DNA of 47,343 bases from a virus (IMGVR_UViG_3300034190_002230:1-47343); one strand, 5' to 3'. Counted from the first letter of the stretch, positions 22,345 to 46,711 are shown. The notes: generated by a model not told the origin, from the sequence alone. Numbers and translations: made by a program.

Positions 22345-22950
22345 TTATTCGTCACTAAAGTCTGTCCACTGTGTACCTGCATCACCGCCAGTAACCAACT
22401 CGAGTACTTGAACTGCTTTCATACGCAGACTCAGACCATACGTGTTGTCGGAGTAGTTAGTGTACGGGACGACTTGTCCACGAATACGAATTACAGAGCC
22501 ATTATATACCGTCTCCTCGACCTTCTCACCAGTCTCGGCGTGTACTACGATAGGCTTCTGGTCAAACGGCTCCCCAGTGCGGGGTGTTACGTGTGCCTTC
22601 AGCTTAAAGCGAAACAGAAGGTTGCCAGTAGGCTCAGGGATGAAGTTGTGCTTGATGTCGGCCTTCTCAGCGTCAGTCATGCCAGCTTCGTACTTGGGCC
22701 GTGTCATTTCCTGCAGATGTACCGGCCATGGCTTAAGCATCCCCTGCTTAGCCAATGGAATAGTAGCCAGCCACTCGTCACGAATGCGATTCAGCTTAGC
22801 TACAAACTCCTCACACAGCTCAGGCGGTATAGCCAGATCGGTGTGATAGACACCATTCGGGTCATGCTTGACATCGGGCGTATTAAGCCACGGAAAGACA
22901 GCTTCGCCGTATGGTGATTGAAATGTTTCTGGTTTTGGATAATTGCTCAT
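22345..22950 (-). CDS. Single-stranded DNA-binding protein (T7 gp2.5-like)
   Basis: A 201-residue protein with a beta-barrel-type core: FRFKLKAHVTPRTGEPFDQK, then VIRIRGQVVPYTNYSDNTYG, and a closing strand GLSLRMKAVQVLELV. It ends in an acidic tail with an aromatic residue (QWTDFSDE), as in T7 gp2.5-like SSBs where the tail recruits helicase and polymerase. GAGGG lies 7 bases before the ATG. The gene lies directly before the polymerase gene. The pattern also fits the phage DUF2815/SSB group. Confidence 0.8.
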   Translation of the reverse strand: MSNYPKPETFQSPYGEAVFPWLNTPDVKHDPNGVYHTDLAIPPELCEEFVAKLNRIRDEWLATIPLAKQGMLKPWPVHLQEMTRPKYEAGMTDAEKADIKHNFIPEPTGNLLFRFKLKAHVTPRTGEPFDQKPIVVHAETGEKVEETVYNGSVIRIRGQVVPYTNYSDNTYGLSLRMKAVQVLELVTGGDAGTQWTDFSDE

Positions 22951-23384
22951 GATAATTCCCTCTTAATCTTGTGTAGTCGTGCATATATTACGTTTGGATC
23001 GACATCCTCTTTCTCTGCTATCTCTCCTGCGTTGTACCCCTCTATGTAGTATCTCAGTGTTCGACCCAGTAAAGGACTCATCGCCGCTGCTCTGTCGAAC
23101 AGTAGGTCTGCTTCCATGTACTTCACCGGGTCCTCAGTGTGGGCGCTGCTATGTAGCTCACGTATATCCTGCTCGTGCTCTATGTCTAGCTCACCCCGTC
23201 GTGCTGCTCTTCGGTATAGATGGATGGTACGGTAGTTGTAGATAGCTGTCATCAGCTTACTCACCTTTGTACCGGCCATGTATCCCTCGGGTTTCTCTAA
23301 AAGGATTTCATAGACATCTTGCTTGACGTCCTCATCCCAGCTCTGCCTTTCTGCAAAGTCGATCATCTCTAATGATATGAACAT
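22947..23384 (-). CDS. Sigma-70/ECF-like transcription factor
   Basis: A 145-residue, all-helical protein. The middle (SKLMTAIYNYRTIHLYRRAA, about 43-62) resembles sigma region 2, and the C-terminal part (SPLLGRTLRYYIEGYNAGEI, then AEKEDVDPNVIYARLHKIKR) resembles region 4, with a helix-turn-helix. ECF sigmas have this size and two-domain layout. As no phage RNA polymerase was seen, it probably redirects host RNA polymerase to late genes, as the phiEco32 sigma-like factor does. AGGGG lies 6 bases before the ATG. A DNA-binding regulator with only the HTH conserved cannot be excluded. Confidence 0.7.
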   Translation of the reverse strand: MFISLEMIDFAERQSWDEDVKQDVYEILLEKPEGYMAGTKVSKLMTAIYNYRTIHLYRRAARRGELDIEHEQDIRELHSSAHTEDPVKYMEADLLFDRAAAMSPLLGRTLRYYIEGYNAGEIAEKEDVDPNVIYARLHKIKRELS

Positions 23385-26262: not shown

Positions 26263-27057
26263 TTATCCTTGTGTACCGTTTCTGCGACGACGATATGCCC
26301 CACCATTGATGGCGGGGAACTGTCGTCTAAATGCGGTGTAGTACCGCTCGAGTGTTGTGCCCTCGAGACCGGGGGCGGTGTTGACCTCGTAGACACAGGC
26401 CGTGTCTCCATGAACGTTGTAGCCAACGTCCACAGCACCGAAGTCAAGATTAAGGGAACACACAGCAGCAATAGCAGCGTCCTCAACACAGCTAGGAACA
26501 TCCACTCCATCACGTGTGAAAACCCAGCCTGTCGTGCTGTTCCTGATCTGGTAGTTAACGTCTTCATTGTCTACTGCTAACCTCTTACGTTTAAGTTGTC
26601 TATCAATTACCTCATCGAATGCCACGTGTATGCGGTATTCATGCGCCTTCTTCACATACTGTGTGTACAGTGGGGCGTGTACTATGTCCTCCACAGCCTC
26701 GGCTAGAACTATGCCTCGTCCCGTGTTAGCTCGTAGGAGCGTCCTACAGAGGACTTTGTGACCTTCCCCTACCCATGCTATTGCTTCATCACGATTGGCC
26801 GTCCACGGTGCTTGTGGTACGCCCCACTCATCGAACTGCTGTATAGCAAACAGCTTATTAGAGGCTATCGCCACTGCTTCGGGTGGATTGATGTAATATC
26901 CATGGAACAGTCGCTTATCACTCCCCCAGTTGATGATGTAGTCGAAGTCGCTGTGCTTACGCACCTGTTTAGATGTAGCCCGCAATATGCCCGCGTACTT
27001 ACCTAGAGCCTTAGCACTGCCTGACCACTGCTTGTAAGGCTGAATCCTTATTGTCAT
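26263..27057 (-). CDS. ATP-grasp ligase (RimK-like), part of the amidoligase cluster
   Basis: A 264-residue protein with ATP-grasp features: the Lys of ASNKLFAIQQF (around 65-75), LCRTLLRANTGRGI (103-116, the Gly-rich nucleotide loop), an adenine-hinge region (QYVKKAHEYRIHV, 133-145) and the metal site DFGAVDVGY (Asp210) followed by CVYEVNTAPG (Glu224, Asn226). This enzyme class makes amide or peptide bonds via an acyl phosphate. With the two COOH-NH2 ligases, glutamine amidotransferase and cyclotransferase it forms one gene cluster. AGGAG lies 6 bases before the ATG. The substrate is unknown. Confidence 0.82.
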   Translation of the reverse strand: MTIRIQPYKQWSGSAKALGKYAGILRATSKQVRKHSDFDYIINWGSDKRLFHGYYINPPEAVAIASNKLFAIQQFDEWGVPQAPWTANRDEAIAWVGEGHKVLCRTLLRANTGRGIVLAEAVEDIVHAPLYTQYVKKAHEYRIHVAFDEVIDRQLKRKRLAVDNEDVNYQIRNSTTGWVFTRDGVDVPSCVEDAAIAAVCSLNLDFGAVDVGYNVHGDTACVYEVNTAPGLEGTTLERYYTAFRRQFPAINGGAYRRRRNGTQG

Positions 27058-27066
27058 ATGTTACTC

Positions 27067-28605
27067 CTAGTGTATTGAGTTTAACAGTTTCATGTCTACT
27101 ACGCAAGCCTCGCATATCAGGTCTTGACCGCCATTTACTACGCTCATGTGATCTACGTCCGCTGCTAGAAGGTTAGCTTGACAGTTTATGCAGCCAGCCT
27201 CTAACAACGGTTTTAACTTTCCCCACTCCACCAAACATCCTTCCGGTCCGGGGACCAACAGATCATTAGCCACGTCTTCACACGTGTGAGGTTCCGGGTC
27301 TGACTCCGCTGCTTCCTTTAGCTCTTTCTGCCTCTTAGCATAGTCCTCATAGTTACAGTGTACCAGCGCACCCAAGATACCACAGTTCTTCTTATCGAAC
27401 TTATGTGCTGGGCATATTCCTATCGGCCTAACTAGCCAGTCTCGGTTCTTGTAGGACTCGTACTGGACAGTCGACACGTTGTGAATCGTCATATCCCACG
27501 GTAGATCGTCCCAGTCCTTATGGTACATCGTGCCGTGTACAGTCCACGTGCCCTTACTATTAGGCCCATTGTTGTTCTGGAATGCCTCAGTAGGTTCAAA
27601 GCGCAGCATATCATTGATACTTAGATACATCTCATCACGCAGCATCATCTGCATTGGTCTAGGCACAGTCTGCATGTGCCCATTGACGTTGACCTTAAGA
27701 CTACTGTACCCACACCCACCGTTTGAGCTGGGCGTGCCACTTCCTGTGACCTTTGCTTCTCGCTCTTTCTGCCAAGCTGCGGTTTGCGCCTGCCACCCTT
27801 TGCTTTGCTGCGGACTCACGTATGAACCACGATTCGTACGCTGCATCGGATGCGTATGATGAAGCGTATGATGGAACTGGCGGACAAAAGGGTTGTACTT
27901 GATGACCTCTGGCTTAGTGTCGCCCTTCTTAAACTTGAGTATCTGGTGTGTGTCTATCTCATATATCGCCCCACCCCTGCTGGGGTGCTGCTTGAAAGAC
28001 TTGTTGATAGCACTCAAGTGCTGCCCATCACTCATAAACCACATGATATTCTTACTTGGGTTGAATGTTATGTGCAGTGGCCTCGCATTGTTCCGCGTCA
28101 TATTGATGCTATTATCGCGGGAGTCTGTCCATAATAGAGCATACGCCCCGTTTACCTTACTTAACACCTTGTCGGCGTCTTTAGGGCTATGCTTGGACAG
28201 AGCGTTAGCGATCTGCATCGAGTCAACCTCACCAATCTCCTTGTCAAACTCATCCAGTGACGCCCCGCCATCGTTCAGTGTACCGTTATGTACCATGGTA
28301 ACTGGCCCGAAGGTAAACGGGTGAGCGTTCTCTATGGTTGTTGCGCCTATAGTAGCCGCTCTATTGTGGCCTATCTGTGCCCAGCCAGTCTTGTGCTTCT
28401 TCTTATACTCCTTAGAGTGTACAAATGCATCGCCCGGTGCCGTTGTCTTCAAAGTACTTACAGTGAAATTACCACCCACTGTTACTATACCAGTCGCATC
28501 GTCGCCTCTAAGTGTATCTAAAGCAAGCGCATACCTCATGAAATGCTCCTTAGCATCCTTATATAAGAGGTCGTTATTACTTACATATCCAATAATACCG
28601 CACAT
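27067..28605 (-). CDS. Class II glutamine amidotransferase
   Basis: A 512-residue protein. It starts MCGIIGYVS, so Cys2 becomes the N-terminal nucleophile after Met removal. Further Ntn-hydrolase motifs are RGDDATG (33-39), GHNRAATIG (79-87) and VHNGTL (105-110, the oxyanion region). Residues 1-230 are the amidotransferase, releasing ammonia from glutamine. Residues 230-512 have no known synthetase domain but include two Cys-rich parts (CPAHKFDKKNC; CINC and CEAC near the end) that may bind zinc. It likely supplies ammonia to the neighbouring ligases or makes terminal amides. AGGAG precedes the ATG. Confidence 0.85.
   Translation of the reverse strand: MCGIIGYVSNNDLLYKDAKEHFMRYALALDTLRGDDATGIVTVGGNFTVSTLKTTAPGDAFVHSKEYKKKHKTGWAQIGHNRAATIGATTIENAHPFTFGPVTMVHNGTLNDGGASLDEFDKEIGEVDSMQIANALSKHSPKDADKVLSKVNGAYALLWTDSRDNSINMTRNNARPLHITFNPSKNIMWFMSDGQHLSAINKSFKQHPSRGGAIYEIDTHQILKFKKGDTKPEVIKYNPFVRQFHHTLHHTHPMQRTNRGSYVSPQQSKGWQAQTAAWQKEREAKVTGSGTPSSNGGCGYSSLKVNVNGHMQTVPRPMQMMLRDEMYLSINDMLRFEPTEAFQNNNGPNSKGTWTVHGTMYHKDWDDLPWDMTIHNVSTVQYESYKNRDWLVRPIGICPAHKFDKKNCGILGALVHCNYEDYAKRQKELKEAAESDPEPHTCEDVANDLLVPGPEGCLVEWGKLKPLLEAGCINCQANLLAADVDHMSVVNGGQDLICEACVVDMKLLNSIH
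27278..27289. promoter_or_regulatory. Palindrome TCACACGTGTGA, copy 4
   Basis: Perfect copy inside the C-terminal third of the amidotransferase gene, encoding HTCE. Confidence 0.55.
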
Positions 28606-29550
28606 TTATTCATCTCCTTGTATGTGCCAATCTAACTCTTCCCATTTGGGTGCTTCTGCTCCAGCTATAAAGCAAGCTGTATCATCCGCATCCTCTTGAT
28701 CGACGTGATCACATGACAGCAGGTTGTACCCCACTGCGTCTAACATCTTTCGTATTCCATCCCGATGATATACCTCGCATATCTTCACAGGGTCGCTATA
28801 CTTAAGAGCTTCCCTGCGAATATTGAGTAATATCTCAGCCCACGCTATTATCTGGCTGGCGCTCAGTGTACTCGGTGCTTGACGAAACTCTAATGTACCG
28901 AACTTAAGCAGCGACGACACGTTGAGTGCCGCGTACTTAGGCGCACTGAGCATACTCAGCTGACTGTACTTAGAAGCTCCCCCAGTGAGATAGTACTTAA
29001 TCCTACTTTGATCATATTCTCCGGCCACAGTAATCCCCGATCTAAGGTTCTTACTGTCCAGATGCAGTGTCTCAGCCAGCTGGGTATTAGACCACATGGG
29101 TGCGCAGAAGTGCGACATCTCCCTACCGCTAGCAAAAGCGGCGAACAGTGTCGGCTCCAGAAACGCATAGTATGTGACCATCTGGAACATCTCCCGCCAA
29201 CTCAGGTCAGTGACGTTCACGTGTACGTGTAGGCCGCATCTAATAGTCGGGATCACTTCGTACTCTCTGGCGTGGGAAATAATACCGTTTACCGAATCTG
29301 CGAGATCAGCACGCTTAGTTGGCTCGCTAATGTACTCGATACCACTATTCCTCAAGCTATGATCTACAGTATGACGCCAACCTTTAGGGAAGCCCTCAAT
29401 ATAACTTTCACCCGCCCCGTAATTAGAGGCGTGTTCATACTCTAGCTCAATGCCCACGTACTCGCCCGCATAATGTGGCTTAGCGAGACAGCGGCCTATG
29501 TTACTGTCAAATGTTACTCTCATTGCGCCCTCTCTAGTTGCTAATCTCAT
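28606..29550 (-). CDS. Amidoligase (Amidoligase_2, glutamine synthetase-like fold)
   Basis: A 314-residue protein matching the putative amidoligase family: GIELEYE near residue 32 (Glu ligands), VDHSLRNSGIEYISEP (62-77), CGLHVHVN (about 106-113), then SAPKYAALNVSS and GTLEFRQAPS. These are the metal and ATP sites of the glutamine synthetase-like COOH-NH2 ligases. It should join a carboxylate to an amine using ATP. It has two possible starts (29550 and 29523), each with an identical GAGAGGG site inside a 27-bp tandem duplication. It is distinct from the other ligase at 30146. Confidence 0.82.
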   Translation of the reverse strand: MRLATREGAMRVTFDSNIGRCLAKPHYAGEYVGIELEYEHASNYGAGESYIEGFPKGWRHTVDHSLRNSGIEYISEPTKRADLADSVNGIISHAREYEVIPTIRCGLHVHVNVTDLSWREMFQMVTYYAFLEPTLFAAFASGREMSHFCAPMWSNTQLAETLHLDSKNLRSGITVAGEYDQSRIKYYLTGGASKYSQLSMLSAPKYAALNVSSLLKFGTLEFRQAPSTLSASQIIAWAEILLNIRREALKYSDPVKICEVYHRDGIRKMLDAVGYNLLSCDHVDQEDADDTACFIAGAEAPKWEELDWHIQGDE

Positions 29551-29571
29551 TACGCCCTCTCTAGTTGCCTA
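29518..29571. repeat. 27-bp tandem duplication carrying a ribosome site and start codon
   Basis: Bases 29518-29544 and 29545-29571 are alike at 24 of 27 positions. On the - strand each copy holds GAGAGGG followed by ATGAGA, so the amidoligase has two in-frame ribosome sites and start codons, and the upstream gene's last codons lie in the first copy. Confidence 0.85.
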
Positions 29572-30149
29572 GTTACTCGACCTGCCAACGGACAGCAGGA
29601 TGATGAGGGTTCGTATGCCCATGCGGTGCTTACATTAGTCAGCCTACCTGCTGGTAAACCACGATAGATCACTAGGAGTGTGTCGGTACTTGATGTCTCC
29701 TCGCTATCAACTAGCAGAATATCCCTACTCACGGCTACAATATTAGCTTCATGCTTATTGTACCTGCTAACCATGCTAATATTTGCAAGCCTGTCGATAC
29801 CTTCTGCAACACCATAGTGATTGGGGCCATCCCGCAATGTTTCCATCGGGATACTAGTATAGCCGTACTTGACAAAGTAATGATCGTCTTGCGTTGCAGA
29901 CTTGCGCATGTTTCGCACTCCCCGCCTCGCAATATACACTCCACCACTGTCCGTATTGTACGCGCCAGCTCTCGGCCACCAGCACTTCAGTGATCTTGCA
30001 GTGCAGGGCATGTACTCCATATCGTCGTCAATCCATACATACATCTTATTACTGGCTACCTGCACCTTACGAGGTACGCCCTTGTGCAGCATCCACGTGT
30101 TATTGTAGTACATACGCCTATCAGCAGTTAACGCATCTGAAGGGTTCAT
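29550..30149 (-). CDS. Unknown protein between the two amidoligases
   Basis: A 199-residue protein coupled to both ligase genes (ATGA overlap upstream, TAATG overlap downstream). It shows many Tyr and Trp residues in the N-terminal half (MYYNNTWMLHKGVPRKVQVA, MYVWIDDDMEYMPC) and a mixed alpha/beta middle; the end is RVTRQLERA. I recognise no enzyme motif. The fixed position between two ligases suggests a substrate, carrier or partner protein for them, but this is inference. Confidence 0.6.
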   Translation of the reverse strand: MNPSDALTADRRMYYNNTWMLHKGVPRKVQVASNKMYVWIDDDMEYMPCTARSLKCWWPRAGAYNTDSGGVYIARRGVRNMRKSATQDDHYFVKYGYTSIPMETLRDGPNHYGVAEGIDRLANISMVSRYNKHEANIVAVSRDILLVDSEETSSTDTLLVIYRGLPAGRLTNVSTAWAYEPSSSCCPLAGRVTRQLERA

Positions 30150-30997
30150 AGGGCTACACCTGCTTTATACGCGGCGGCTATAACTTTCTGGTACAAATCC
30201 ATGGCCTCACCAGTGGACTTATTAGCTGTCATGTACTTCCGAGCAGACACCCACGGAATAGACCGGAAGCAGTGTTGTAGGTCCGCAGCATCTGTGTCCG
30301 TTAAGAACCTAGCACAATTAAGTGCCGCGGTTCCCATCTTCTCTATGCCGCCCACTGACAAGCCCCACCTGTTGCTAGGTGTACGGTACTCGATACCATA
30401 AGGCTTGGGCCTAAATATACCGGGCTTGCCATACCACCGCTTACGTGGGTCACTCACTGTATCCTGAATCTCAGCGAATATGGATATGAACAACTCCGCA
30501 AATAATGCGGCTACAAAGTCGGGGCAATTAAAGTCACCGCCTAAATGTATATGTCCACCTGCTGATCGCATTAAACCGGGTGCAGGAGCCGCTTTACGGA
30601 CCGCCCCAGCTACATAAGCGTCAAAGTCTGCTTCACACCCGATAGTCTGGGCTTGCCTAGAGGTTAACTGCTCGGCTCTGAAGCGGTGGTTGTGCTTGCG
30701 CTGCCACAATGCATAACGATCACCGTGTCGCTTCTGTAGCTCTTTGGTGACCATGCTCTTCCCCTCACGCATCACACGTGTGAATTGTCGGACAGTGTGT
30801 GACGGTGGAACATTAAACTCCACCATCACGTTGTCCTCTTGAATAGCAAATCCCTCAGCTCTACCTTCAGGTCGGTACGGATCTTCCTTTGTACCTTCGA
30901 GGATGCCTACACATGGCACAATCTCGTTTTCAACTGTATCAAACAATAGTAACTCTAGGTCTGACCCTATTGATACTTCGCATGGTTCCTTATTCAT
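30146..30997 (-). CDS. COOH-NH2 ligase, phiEco32-like type 2
   Basis: A 283-residue protein with the motifs of the phage phiEco32-like amidoligase group: SIGSDLELLLFD (9-20, acidic metal ligands), QEDNVMVEFNVPPS (53-66), SAGGHIHLGGDF (the His pair), PYGIEYRTPSNRW and a helical C-terminus. The fold is the glutamine synthetase-type ligase. It probably adds an amine or amino acid to a carboxylate. It sits 3' of the cyclotransferase-like gene and 5' of the unknown gene and the second amidoligase. AGGA lies upstream of the ATG. Confidence 0.82.
   Translation of the reverse strand: MNKEPCEVSIGSDLELLLFDTVENEIVPCVGILEGTKEDPYRPEGRAEGFAIQEDNVMVEFNVPPSHTVRQFTRVMREGKSMVTKELQKRHGDRYALWQRKHNHRFRAEQLTSRQAQTIGCEADFDAYVAGAVRKAAPAPGLMRSAGGHIHLGGDFNCPDFVAALFAELFISIFAEIQDTVSDPRKRWYGKPGIFRPKPYGIEYRTPSNRWGLSVGGIEKMGTAALNCARFLTDTDAADLQHCFRSIPWVSARKYMTANKSTGEAMDLYQKVIAAAYKAGVAL
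30772..30783. promoter_or_regulatory. Palindrome TCACACGTGTGA, copy 5
   Basis: Perfect copy inside the phiEco32-like ligase gene (codons for FTRV). An in-frame ATG with GAGGGG follows closely on the - strand, so an internal start is possible but unproven. Confidence 0.55.
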
Positions 30998-31007
30998 CTA
31001 ACTATCC

Positions 31008-31358
31008 TCACTTAAGTTTAAGGCGGACAAACGTTTCAGGTGTGTATATCTCCCCGATATCTATCGGCTGAAATGTCCGCAAGATTGGTTTATTCATTGG
31101 TGTGAACTTAGACACTTCCTTAACTGGGGGCTTGTGCTTAATTACTGATTTGCCCCAGTCCTCTCTCTTGCTTGTCATACTTGCTACGCCAGTTGCGGGG
31201 TCCATGAGTGTAACCTCAACGACCTCTTTGCCCCACGTGCAGCGACCCATCTCATACACTGCTTCAAGTGCCGCGTGCTCGTTAACGGCATTCAATGTAC
31301 CCGTACGAAGAATCTTTCGATCATTCCTTAGTATGGTAGCTGCGAAGTAGTAGTTCAT
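31008..31358 (-). CDS. Hypothetical protein in the amidoligase cluster
   Basis: A 116-residue protein with an N-terminal alpha/beta domain (MNYYFAATILRNDRKILRTG, helix around NEHAALEAVYEMG) and a strand (EVVEVTLMDP), then a basic, less ordered C-terminus (GKSVIKHKPPVKEVSKF). Its ATG overlaps the stop of the cyclotransferase-like gene (ATGA). No family was recognised. It is probably part of the same pathway by position. Confidence 0.55.
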   Translation of the reverse strand: MNYYFAATILRNDRKILRTGTLNAVNEHAALEAVYEMGRCTWGKEVVEVTLMDPATGVASMTSKREDWGKSVIKHKPPVKEVSKFTPMNKPILRTFQPIDIGEIYTPETFVRLKLK

Positions 31359-31765
31359 TCCGGCGTGTGATGAAGCCAGAATTTAGCCTCATCCTTGTTA
31401 GGGTGCCACAATCCGGTCTGCTTATGAACAGATGACTTATCCCAGTACCTATCGGCCATAAGAAAGTACATCCATGCACGACGATTGTGTATGTCAGTGA
31501 TTAGCTTACGCCTACGGTACAGGTGAGGATGACCTTCAAGCATATCAAGTGATGCAAGACCTTCGGGTGTTGTAGCCCAAAGCTCGCCTCTTATCTTGTT
31601 AGTCTCCTTACGCTGGTCCATAGCCGCAGGTATCGCGCCCATATCCCACAGTCTGAACGGGCCTGTAACAGAGTCATAGCCGATAAACTTACTATCAGCA
31701 CGCTCTAGTAGCCCATGATTCGAGTGGTCCTTCTTCAAAGTGCCATAAACAAGGACACGAATCAT
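31355..31765 (-). CDS. Gamma-glutamylcyclotransferase-like (AIG2/GGCT) protein
   Basis: A 136-residue protein starting MIRVLVYGTLKKD, with the family's YGTL substrate loop at residues 7-10, then GYDSVTGPFRLWDMGAIPAA, and LASLDMLEGHPHLYRR, where the acidic residues of LDMLEG match the family's catalytic region. I chose the ATG at 31765 because the fold begins here; an earlier in-frame ATG (31828) would add 21 residues through the palindrome. Family members cut gamma-glutamyl amides by cyclisation, so it could edit, release or recycle products of the adjacent ligases. Confidence 0.8.
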   Translation of the reverse strand: MIRVLVYGTLKKDHSNHGLLERADSKFIGYDSVTGPFRLWDMGAIPAAMDQRKETNKIRGELWATTPEGLASLDMLEGHPHLYRRRKLITDIHNRRAWMYFLMADRYWDKSSVHKQTGLWHPNKDEAKFWLHHTPE

Positions 31766-46495: not shown

Positions 46496-46711
46496 ATGGC
46501 GTACAAAGATTACTTACCGGGAGGTGAGAAAGCAGGCGGGTTAGACACAGAGATAGCGGATTCACAGAATCAATCACAGGCGCGAGAGCATGATCCAAAT
46601 ACTGGACAGTTCGTCGCTACACCTGAGACAATAGACTGGGAACAACGCTACAAAGACCTAGAGGTTCACAACAGTAAGCAAGCTCAAAACCTTGGCCTAT
46701 ATAAGTGCTAA
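46496..46711 (+). CDS. Scaffolding-like protein, N-terminal part (gene continues at 153)
   Basis: ATG at 46496 with GAGGAG upstream starts MAYKDYLPGGEKAGGLDTEI. The frame continues through the terminal repeat to 46705 (70 codons) and then, in the real genome, to 153-740. In the contig it instead meets the foreign segment and hits a stop at 46711. The joined protein has about 265 residues. It is described further at 1-740. Confidence 0.8.
   Translation: MAYKDYLPGGEKAGGLDTEIADSQNQSQAREHDPNTGQFVATPETIDWEQRYKDLEVHNSKQAQNLGLYKC
46554..46705. repeat. Terminal direct repeat, right copy
   Basis: Matches bases 1-152 with one mismatch (see left copy). The end of the match (46705) is the point where the contig switches to unrelated sequence. 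Confidence 0.9.

Follow-up and report, generated by a model that had tools for sequence, protein, structure and literature searches.

The seven genes crowded on the minus strand between positions 26263 and 31765 of IMGVR_UViG_3300034190_002230 raise two questions: whether such a set has been met before, and what its ligases, glutaminase and cyclotransferase would make. The record, a 47,343-base IMG/VR virus sequence (the window, at its full length), is that of a tailed phage, scans of its proteins finding major head, portal and terminase genes. As to the first question, the cluster is, judging by its sequence, a genuine and intact copy of an already known phage cassette for making amide bonds, with all catalytic motifs intact. 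As to the second, we lean with modest confidence towards a middle-expressed phage operon that would make and then trim gamma-glutamyl-type amides. The open genes are, by coordinate:

26263..27057, minus strand: RimK-like ATP-grasp ligase, 264 amino acids (aa) (phrog_2599, 2e-64; RimK structures, 1.5e-16)
27067..28605, minus strand: class II glutamine amidotransferase (GAT-II), 512 aa (GATase_6, 2.4e-11)
28606..29550, minus strand: Amidoligase_2 family ligase, glutamine synthetase (GS)-like, 314 aa (PF12224, 1.6e-11)
29550..30149, minus strand: conserved core protein, here called U199, 199 aa (124 loci, between both ligases)
30146..30997, minus strand: COOH-NH2 ligase type 2, 283 aa (PF14395, 1e-6, over the cut-off)
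31008..31358, minus strand: orphan, 116 aa (no Pfam, PHROG or NCBIfam match, no homologue in ~180 loci)
31355..31765, minus strand: gamma-glutamyl(amine) cyclotransferase (GGCT), AIG2/GGACT family (PF06094, 1.7e-18)

The initial annotation had placed these genes correctly and had given them the families that Pfam and PHROGs return; the motifs it quoted (GSDLELLLFD, GIELEYE, MCGIIGYVS, NTGRGI, CVYEVNTAPG and YGTL) are all present, and the 10 bases it counted before the ATP-grasp gene measure 9 nt. Elsewhere, GGCT overlaps the 116-aa gene by 4 nt, which is followed after 10 nt by the COOH-NH2 ligase; the latter overlaps U199 by 4 nt, U199 overlaps Amidoligase_2 by 1 nt, and Amidoligase_2 and GAT-II abut directly. 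The best GGCT start is the ATG at 31765, and a longer TTG-started frame extends to 31828.

Are the enzymes likely to be active? Active-site conservation was counted across up to 145 relatives. The ATP-grasp ligase, clear in PHROGs and weak in Pfam, finds its nearest solved structures in RimK by profile; K68, E140, R142, K156, D210, E224 and N226 are each kept by at least 98% of 145 relatives, and the window protein carries the Mg-binding Asp, Glu and Asn of RimK-type ligases. Placement in the R2K clade was rejected, as R2K_2 scored 13.8 bits, short of its cut-off of 26.2, and RimK matches better. In GAT-II (phrog_4736, 5e-53), which matches the GlmS structure 1xff, the glutaminase residues C2 (the Cys after Met), R82, N107, G108 and D128 are conserved at 92-97%. 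Its C-terminal region is Cys-rich and zinc-ribbon-like, 94 of 138 homologues having CxxC..CxxC beyond residue 200; a small zinc-ribbon open reading frame (ORF), found in part of the loci only and partly fused into GAT-II, is a doubtful candidate for a separate core member. Amidoligase_2 keeps E35, E37, E72, H108, H110, E221 and R223 (ExE, HxH, ExR) at 97-99%, the residues that mark ligases of the GS and glutamate-cysteine ligase (GCL) fold, to which its product would belong.

The COOH-NH2 ligase falls into phrog_3815 (2e-36), in agreement with Pfam. Its profile found no match in the PDB by sequence alone, and a structure search did: the model (predicted local distance difference test, pLDDT, 92.3) is nearest in Foldseek to YbdK (7e-6 to 7e-5), followed by glutamine synthetase and plant glutamate-cysteine ligase (7e-3), with Dop weaker still. 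Conserved acidic, His and Arg residues are present, keeping metal-type and Arg sites, and the model thus predicts a YbdK/GCL-like, GS-type fold. In GGCT, YGxL and the catalytic-type Glu are invariant, and the family profile matches gamma-glutamylamine cyclotransferase (GGACT) structures 3jub/3juc. The metal and ATP sites of the ligases, on which the initial annotation had let its proposal depend, are conserved in relatives and present in the window, and the nearest relatives of the COOH-NH2 ligase and the ATP-grasp enzyme are mostly enzymes that use a glutamate carboxylate.

Does the set travel together? Relatives found by tblastn in annotated phage records number 302 for Amidoligase_2, 306 for the COOH-NH2 ligase and 310 for the ATP-grasp ligase, the window proteins being less than 60% identical to those of every such record; in IMG/VR, 357 stretches hold a COOH-NH2 ligase relative and more than 500 an ATP-grasp relative. 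Profiles built on the window genes were run against the best 80 stretches for each of these two genes, stretches chosen by their similarity to the window, which carries selection bias. Around the COOH-NH2 ligase (at least 6 kb either side), 40 of 41 loci hold Amidoligase_2, GAT-II and ATP-grasp, all on the same strand; around ATP-grasp, Amidoligase_2 and GAT-II occur in 40 of 40 loci and the COOH-NH2 ligase in 30 of 40. Median intergenic gaps are 2, -4, -14 and -1 nt across cassette loci, near zero as expected for coupled translation. These counts bear out the linkage in related phages, and the co-transcribed amide-bond-forming set that had been proposed from the window is supported.

The order COOH-NH2 ligase, ~190 aa protein, Amidoligase_2, GAT-II, ATP-grasp recurs in PaP3, an Alcaligenes phage, A24, ctOsX528, phiEco32 and Rembedalsseter, and rearranged versions occur in CVT22, TC6, RIO-1 (same set as the window, with GAT-II moved) and the Leptolyngbya phage Lbo-JY46; the ZRK32 Planctomycete phage has the full cassette. 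PaP3 and phiEco32 carry GGCT nearby, after ATP-grasp, whereas in the window it lies upstream of the ligases. In PaP3, A24, phiEco32 and Rembedalsseter, the large genes that precede the COOH-NH2 ligase could be assigned to no family of known function. Most of the named hosts in the records listed are Gram-negative; a cyanobacterium and a planctomycete also occur.

This gene set has been described before. A RIO-1-like set of seven genes, called a "peptidoglycan modification" cassette and hypothesised to guard against superinfection, is reported with RIO-1, PSA-HP1, phiEco32, PaP3, LUZ24 and tf as carriers (PMC5498523), all with the same enzyme families as the window; this and other papers credit the prediction to Iyer et al. 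The same reading was given for a LUZ24-like phage (PMC11945000) and for OM43 phages (PMC10580990), UFV-P2 lists the same gene set (PMC3890496), and the PaP3 block ORF22-56, which holds its cassette, is middle-expressed (PMC4707531). The cassette is real, intact, widespread and already described, not a new system, and the initial annotation overstated its novelty; the window differs from the RIO-1/PaP3/phiEco32 type in details alone, namely the place of GGCT, the 116-aa orphan and low protein identities. Two aspects are new: (i) U199, of unknown fold, and (ii) an alternation between GGCT and a Peptidase_C26 protein, with a C26 clade dedicated to the cassette. Hundreds of sequenced phages carry the cassette, some of them E. 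coli and P. aeruginosa phages under consideration for therapy; this alternation, together with the dedicated U199, narrows a general prediction down to specific testable claims.

What is U199? Like the 116-aa product it has no Pfam match. The family is divergent, occurs in 124 loci and is placed between the COOH-NH2 ligase and Amidoligase_2; a profile built without phiEco32, TC6, RIO-1, Rembedalsseter and the ZRK32 phage found it at the same place in these five held-out phages (E 2e-8 to 6e-24). Its AlphaFold model is confident (pLDDT 91.5) and has no PDB match at E<=1e-3, with weak fragment resemblance to SH3/KOW-like domains only; named significant viral matches are proteins of CW02, Vp_R1 and one uncultured phage, with a weaker one to RIO-1. 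U199 is a conserved sixth core member of the cassette without a PDB match. It shows no obvious catalytic residue set, R75 and R79 being best conserved, and we read it as a non-catalytic adaptor or substrate-binding subunit. Weak, part-length Cas12f matches (NCBIfam, PADLOC) were taken as chance. The suggestion that one of the unassigned genes encodes a peptide substrate, as for a graspetide or other ribosomally synthesised and post-translationally modified peptide, is not supported: the 116-aa gene has no relatives, and U199, as a conserved folded protein with a confident model, is no precursor peptide.

The second aspect concerns the cleaving enzyme. Clustering of neighbours gave one more tightly linked family, of ~228 aa, assigned to Peptidase_C26 by Pfam, whose Cys-His-Glu triad is conserved and whose nearest solved relatives by profile are lin1909, proteins deposited as probable glutamine amidotransferases, and PuuD (6vtv). 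GGCT alone is present in 26 of 88 non-identical complete cassettes, C26 alone in 50, both in 10 and neither in 2, so that GGCT and/or C26 is found in 86; exactly one of the two occurs in each of the five held-out phages. The window has GGCT and no C26, while PA11/TC6, CVT22 and ctOsX528 share its core enzymes and U199 and carry the PuuD-like C26 instead. In most relatives, then, GGCT is swapped for a PuuD-like hydrolase, which is beyond what the initial annotation could see from the window. The C26 clade is dedicated to the cassette, because 42 of 43 C26-seeded loci hold all four enzymes of the ligase set. The Fisher test of GGCT against C26 (p 5e-12) is not usable as a probability because shared ancestry inflates it; the robust statement is that an enzyme type predicted to cleave gamma-glutamyl amides is kept through the switches. 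We found no prior description of the alternation in the literature accessible to search. In Lbo-JY46 (L010, 7007-15494), a single cassette has three C26 proteins and GGCT, with annotated PncB and PrsA upstream.

How would these parts work together? A load-and-remove logic is suggested because amide-making families of YbdK/GCL/GS fold are joined by two unrelated cutting families (GGACT and PuuD), and we infer gamma-glutamylation followed by a compulsory step in which the group is removed or edited. The COOH-NH2 ligase and Amidoligase_2 would use ATP to activate a carboxylate, probably the gamma-carboxylate of glutamate, and couple it to an amine; the RimK-like ATP-grasp enzyme would attach glutamate, or a residue like it, through an alpha link; the class II glutaminase would give ammonia, leaving a carboxylate as an amide; and GGCT, or in relatives the PuuD-like hydrolase, would remove or edit the gamma-glutamyl group, U199 possibly holding the partners or the substrate. 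The acceptor would most likely be a cytoplasmic host envelope precursor, in line with the published reading, or a small metabolite. Two proposals of the initial annotation are supported, namely that glutamine donates the nitrogen and that the cyclotransferase serves in editing or release. A ligase is paired with a gamma-glutamyl-cleaving enzyme in putrescine use (PuuA/PuuD) and in butirosin synthesis (BtrJ/BtrG); the cassette shares this ligase-plus-cleaver logic, but its ligase families differ, GAT-II and ATP-grasp are extra, and redox enzymes are lacking. More tentatively, the set might form an undescribed protect-and-release pathway, in which GS-like ligases load a gamma-glutamyl group, one of the interchangeable and unrelated GGCT and C26 has to remove it and U199 is a carrier or scaffold of new fold, yielding a phage-specific amide conjugate for host takeover or defence evasion.

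Several points weigh against making and trimming gamma-glutamyl amides as the function. GGCT is less cassette-specific than C26, all four enzymes being found in 8 of 33 GGCT-seeded loci, and 2 of the 88 cassettes show neither cleaving enzyme within the stretch covered. On a tree of three cassette enzymes, the division into GGCT-only and C26-only needs just at least three (about 3) switches, and an independent-pair test was not significant, with too few pairs; mutual exclusivity is thus weakly tested. Peptidase_C26 also includes amidotransferases, and some records annotate the cassette protein as "glutamine amidotransferase", so C26 could be an ammonia donor rather than a gamma-glutamyl hydrolase. 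No assay of any cassette enzyme was found in the literature accessible to search, and the recurring neighbour families, most of them identified by eye only, included no recognisable Mur ligase or amino-acid racemase.

Which acceptor, then, would the gamma-glutamyl scheme serve? Envelope precursor and small metabolite are the leading options. In the first, peptidoglycan or another envelope precursor would receive unusual amide links on the stem peptide and superinfection would be blocked; this is plausible, if short of probable, and may simply be the biological role of the scheme above. It is the reading published for the RIO-1-like, LUZ24-like and OM43 phages and fits the mostly Gram-negative named hosts, and the host offers a precedent in the amidation of D-isoglutamate (D-iGlu) by MurT/GatD (PMC3267633). 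That reaction is a glutamine-dependent carboxylate amidation, as proposed for the cassette, but MurT is related to Mur ligases and GatD belongs to a different class of glutamine amidotransferases, and neither type was found in the window. The literature accessible to search yielded no experiment on the envelope role, and the recurring neighbours that lack recognisable Mur ligases and racemases likewise include no recognised export gene. GGACT and PuuD, moreover, act on small gamma-glutamyl amines.

This substrate preference of both alternative cleaving families speaks instead for a small amide metabolite, or for nitrogen or polyamine scavenging of the PuuA/PuuD kind, an anti-defence metabolite included, which we regard as possible but doubtful. 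Phosphoribosyltransferase genes annotated for nicotinamide adenine dinucleotide (NAD) synthesis lie a few kb off in A24 and Lbo-JY46, and the presence of the full cassette in the ZRK32 phage also suits a metabolite; no PuuB/PuuC-like oxidoreductase was recognised, however, and PADLOC gave no relevant match.

Modification of a protein is unlikely. Here the RimK-like enzyme would glutamylate a host or phage protein, with the remaining enzymes assembling or editing the tag, as its best solved relatives, the RimK S6-glutamate ligases, might suggest, together with the distant structural kinship of Dop to the COOH-NH2 ligase and the middle expression; yet RimK acts alone on S6, which makes six linked genes excessive, and the cassette has no conserved Pup-like gene. 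Hypermodification of phage DNA bases, a substrate the initial annotation had listed, is highly improbable: Gordonclarkvirinae (the phiEco32 group) do resist restriction without a known pathway (PMC11990801), but Pseudomonas phage Rembedalsseter has the whole cassette and no modification motif by Nanopore against amplified DNA (PMC11780129), and a scan of window proteins, small ORFs lying outside it, turned up no thymidylate/cytosine hydroxymethylase and no other enzyme that activates a base.

Some further features of the window stand out. A perfect 12-bp palindrome, TCACACGTGTGA, has 11 exact copies in the window, where 0.17 would be expected even with one mismatch:

15058, 20142, 25789, 27278, 30772, 31776, 32697, 33255, 33898, 34756, 34868: palindrome TCACACGTGTGA, 12 bp each

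All sites fall within or edge the minus-strand early/middle unit; some lie a short way before start codons and others inside genes (e.g. the COOH-NH2 ligase and GAT-II). Relatives' records L012, L014 and L093 have 13, 4 and 4 copies, and 179 of the 184 loci scanned have none; the palindrome resembles a dispersed operator site for a phage regulator. A 145-aa protein at 22947-23384 has weak sigma-70 region 4/helix-turn-helix similarity, below the cut-off; RIO-1 has an annotated putative sigma factor next to its replication genes, and CVT22 an annotated sigma factor. A direct repeat of 152 nt, 99% identical, occupies 1-152 and 46554-46705 with 638 bases beyond the second copy, and the window ends may reflect an imperfectly trimmed circular or a strain-variable assembly. 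Finally, several copies of a repeated protein family of 224-267 aa with a CRDFLGD-type motif (family 28) adjoin some cassettes (L055, L045, L177).

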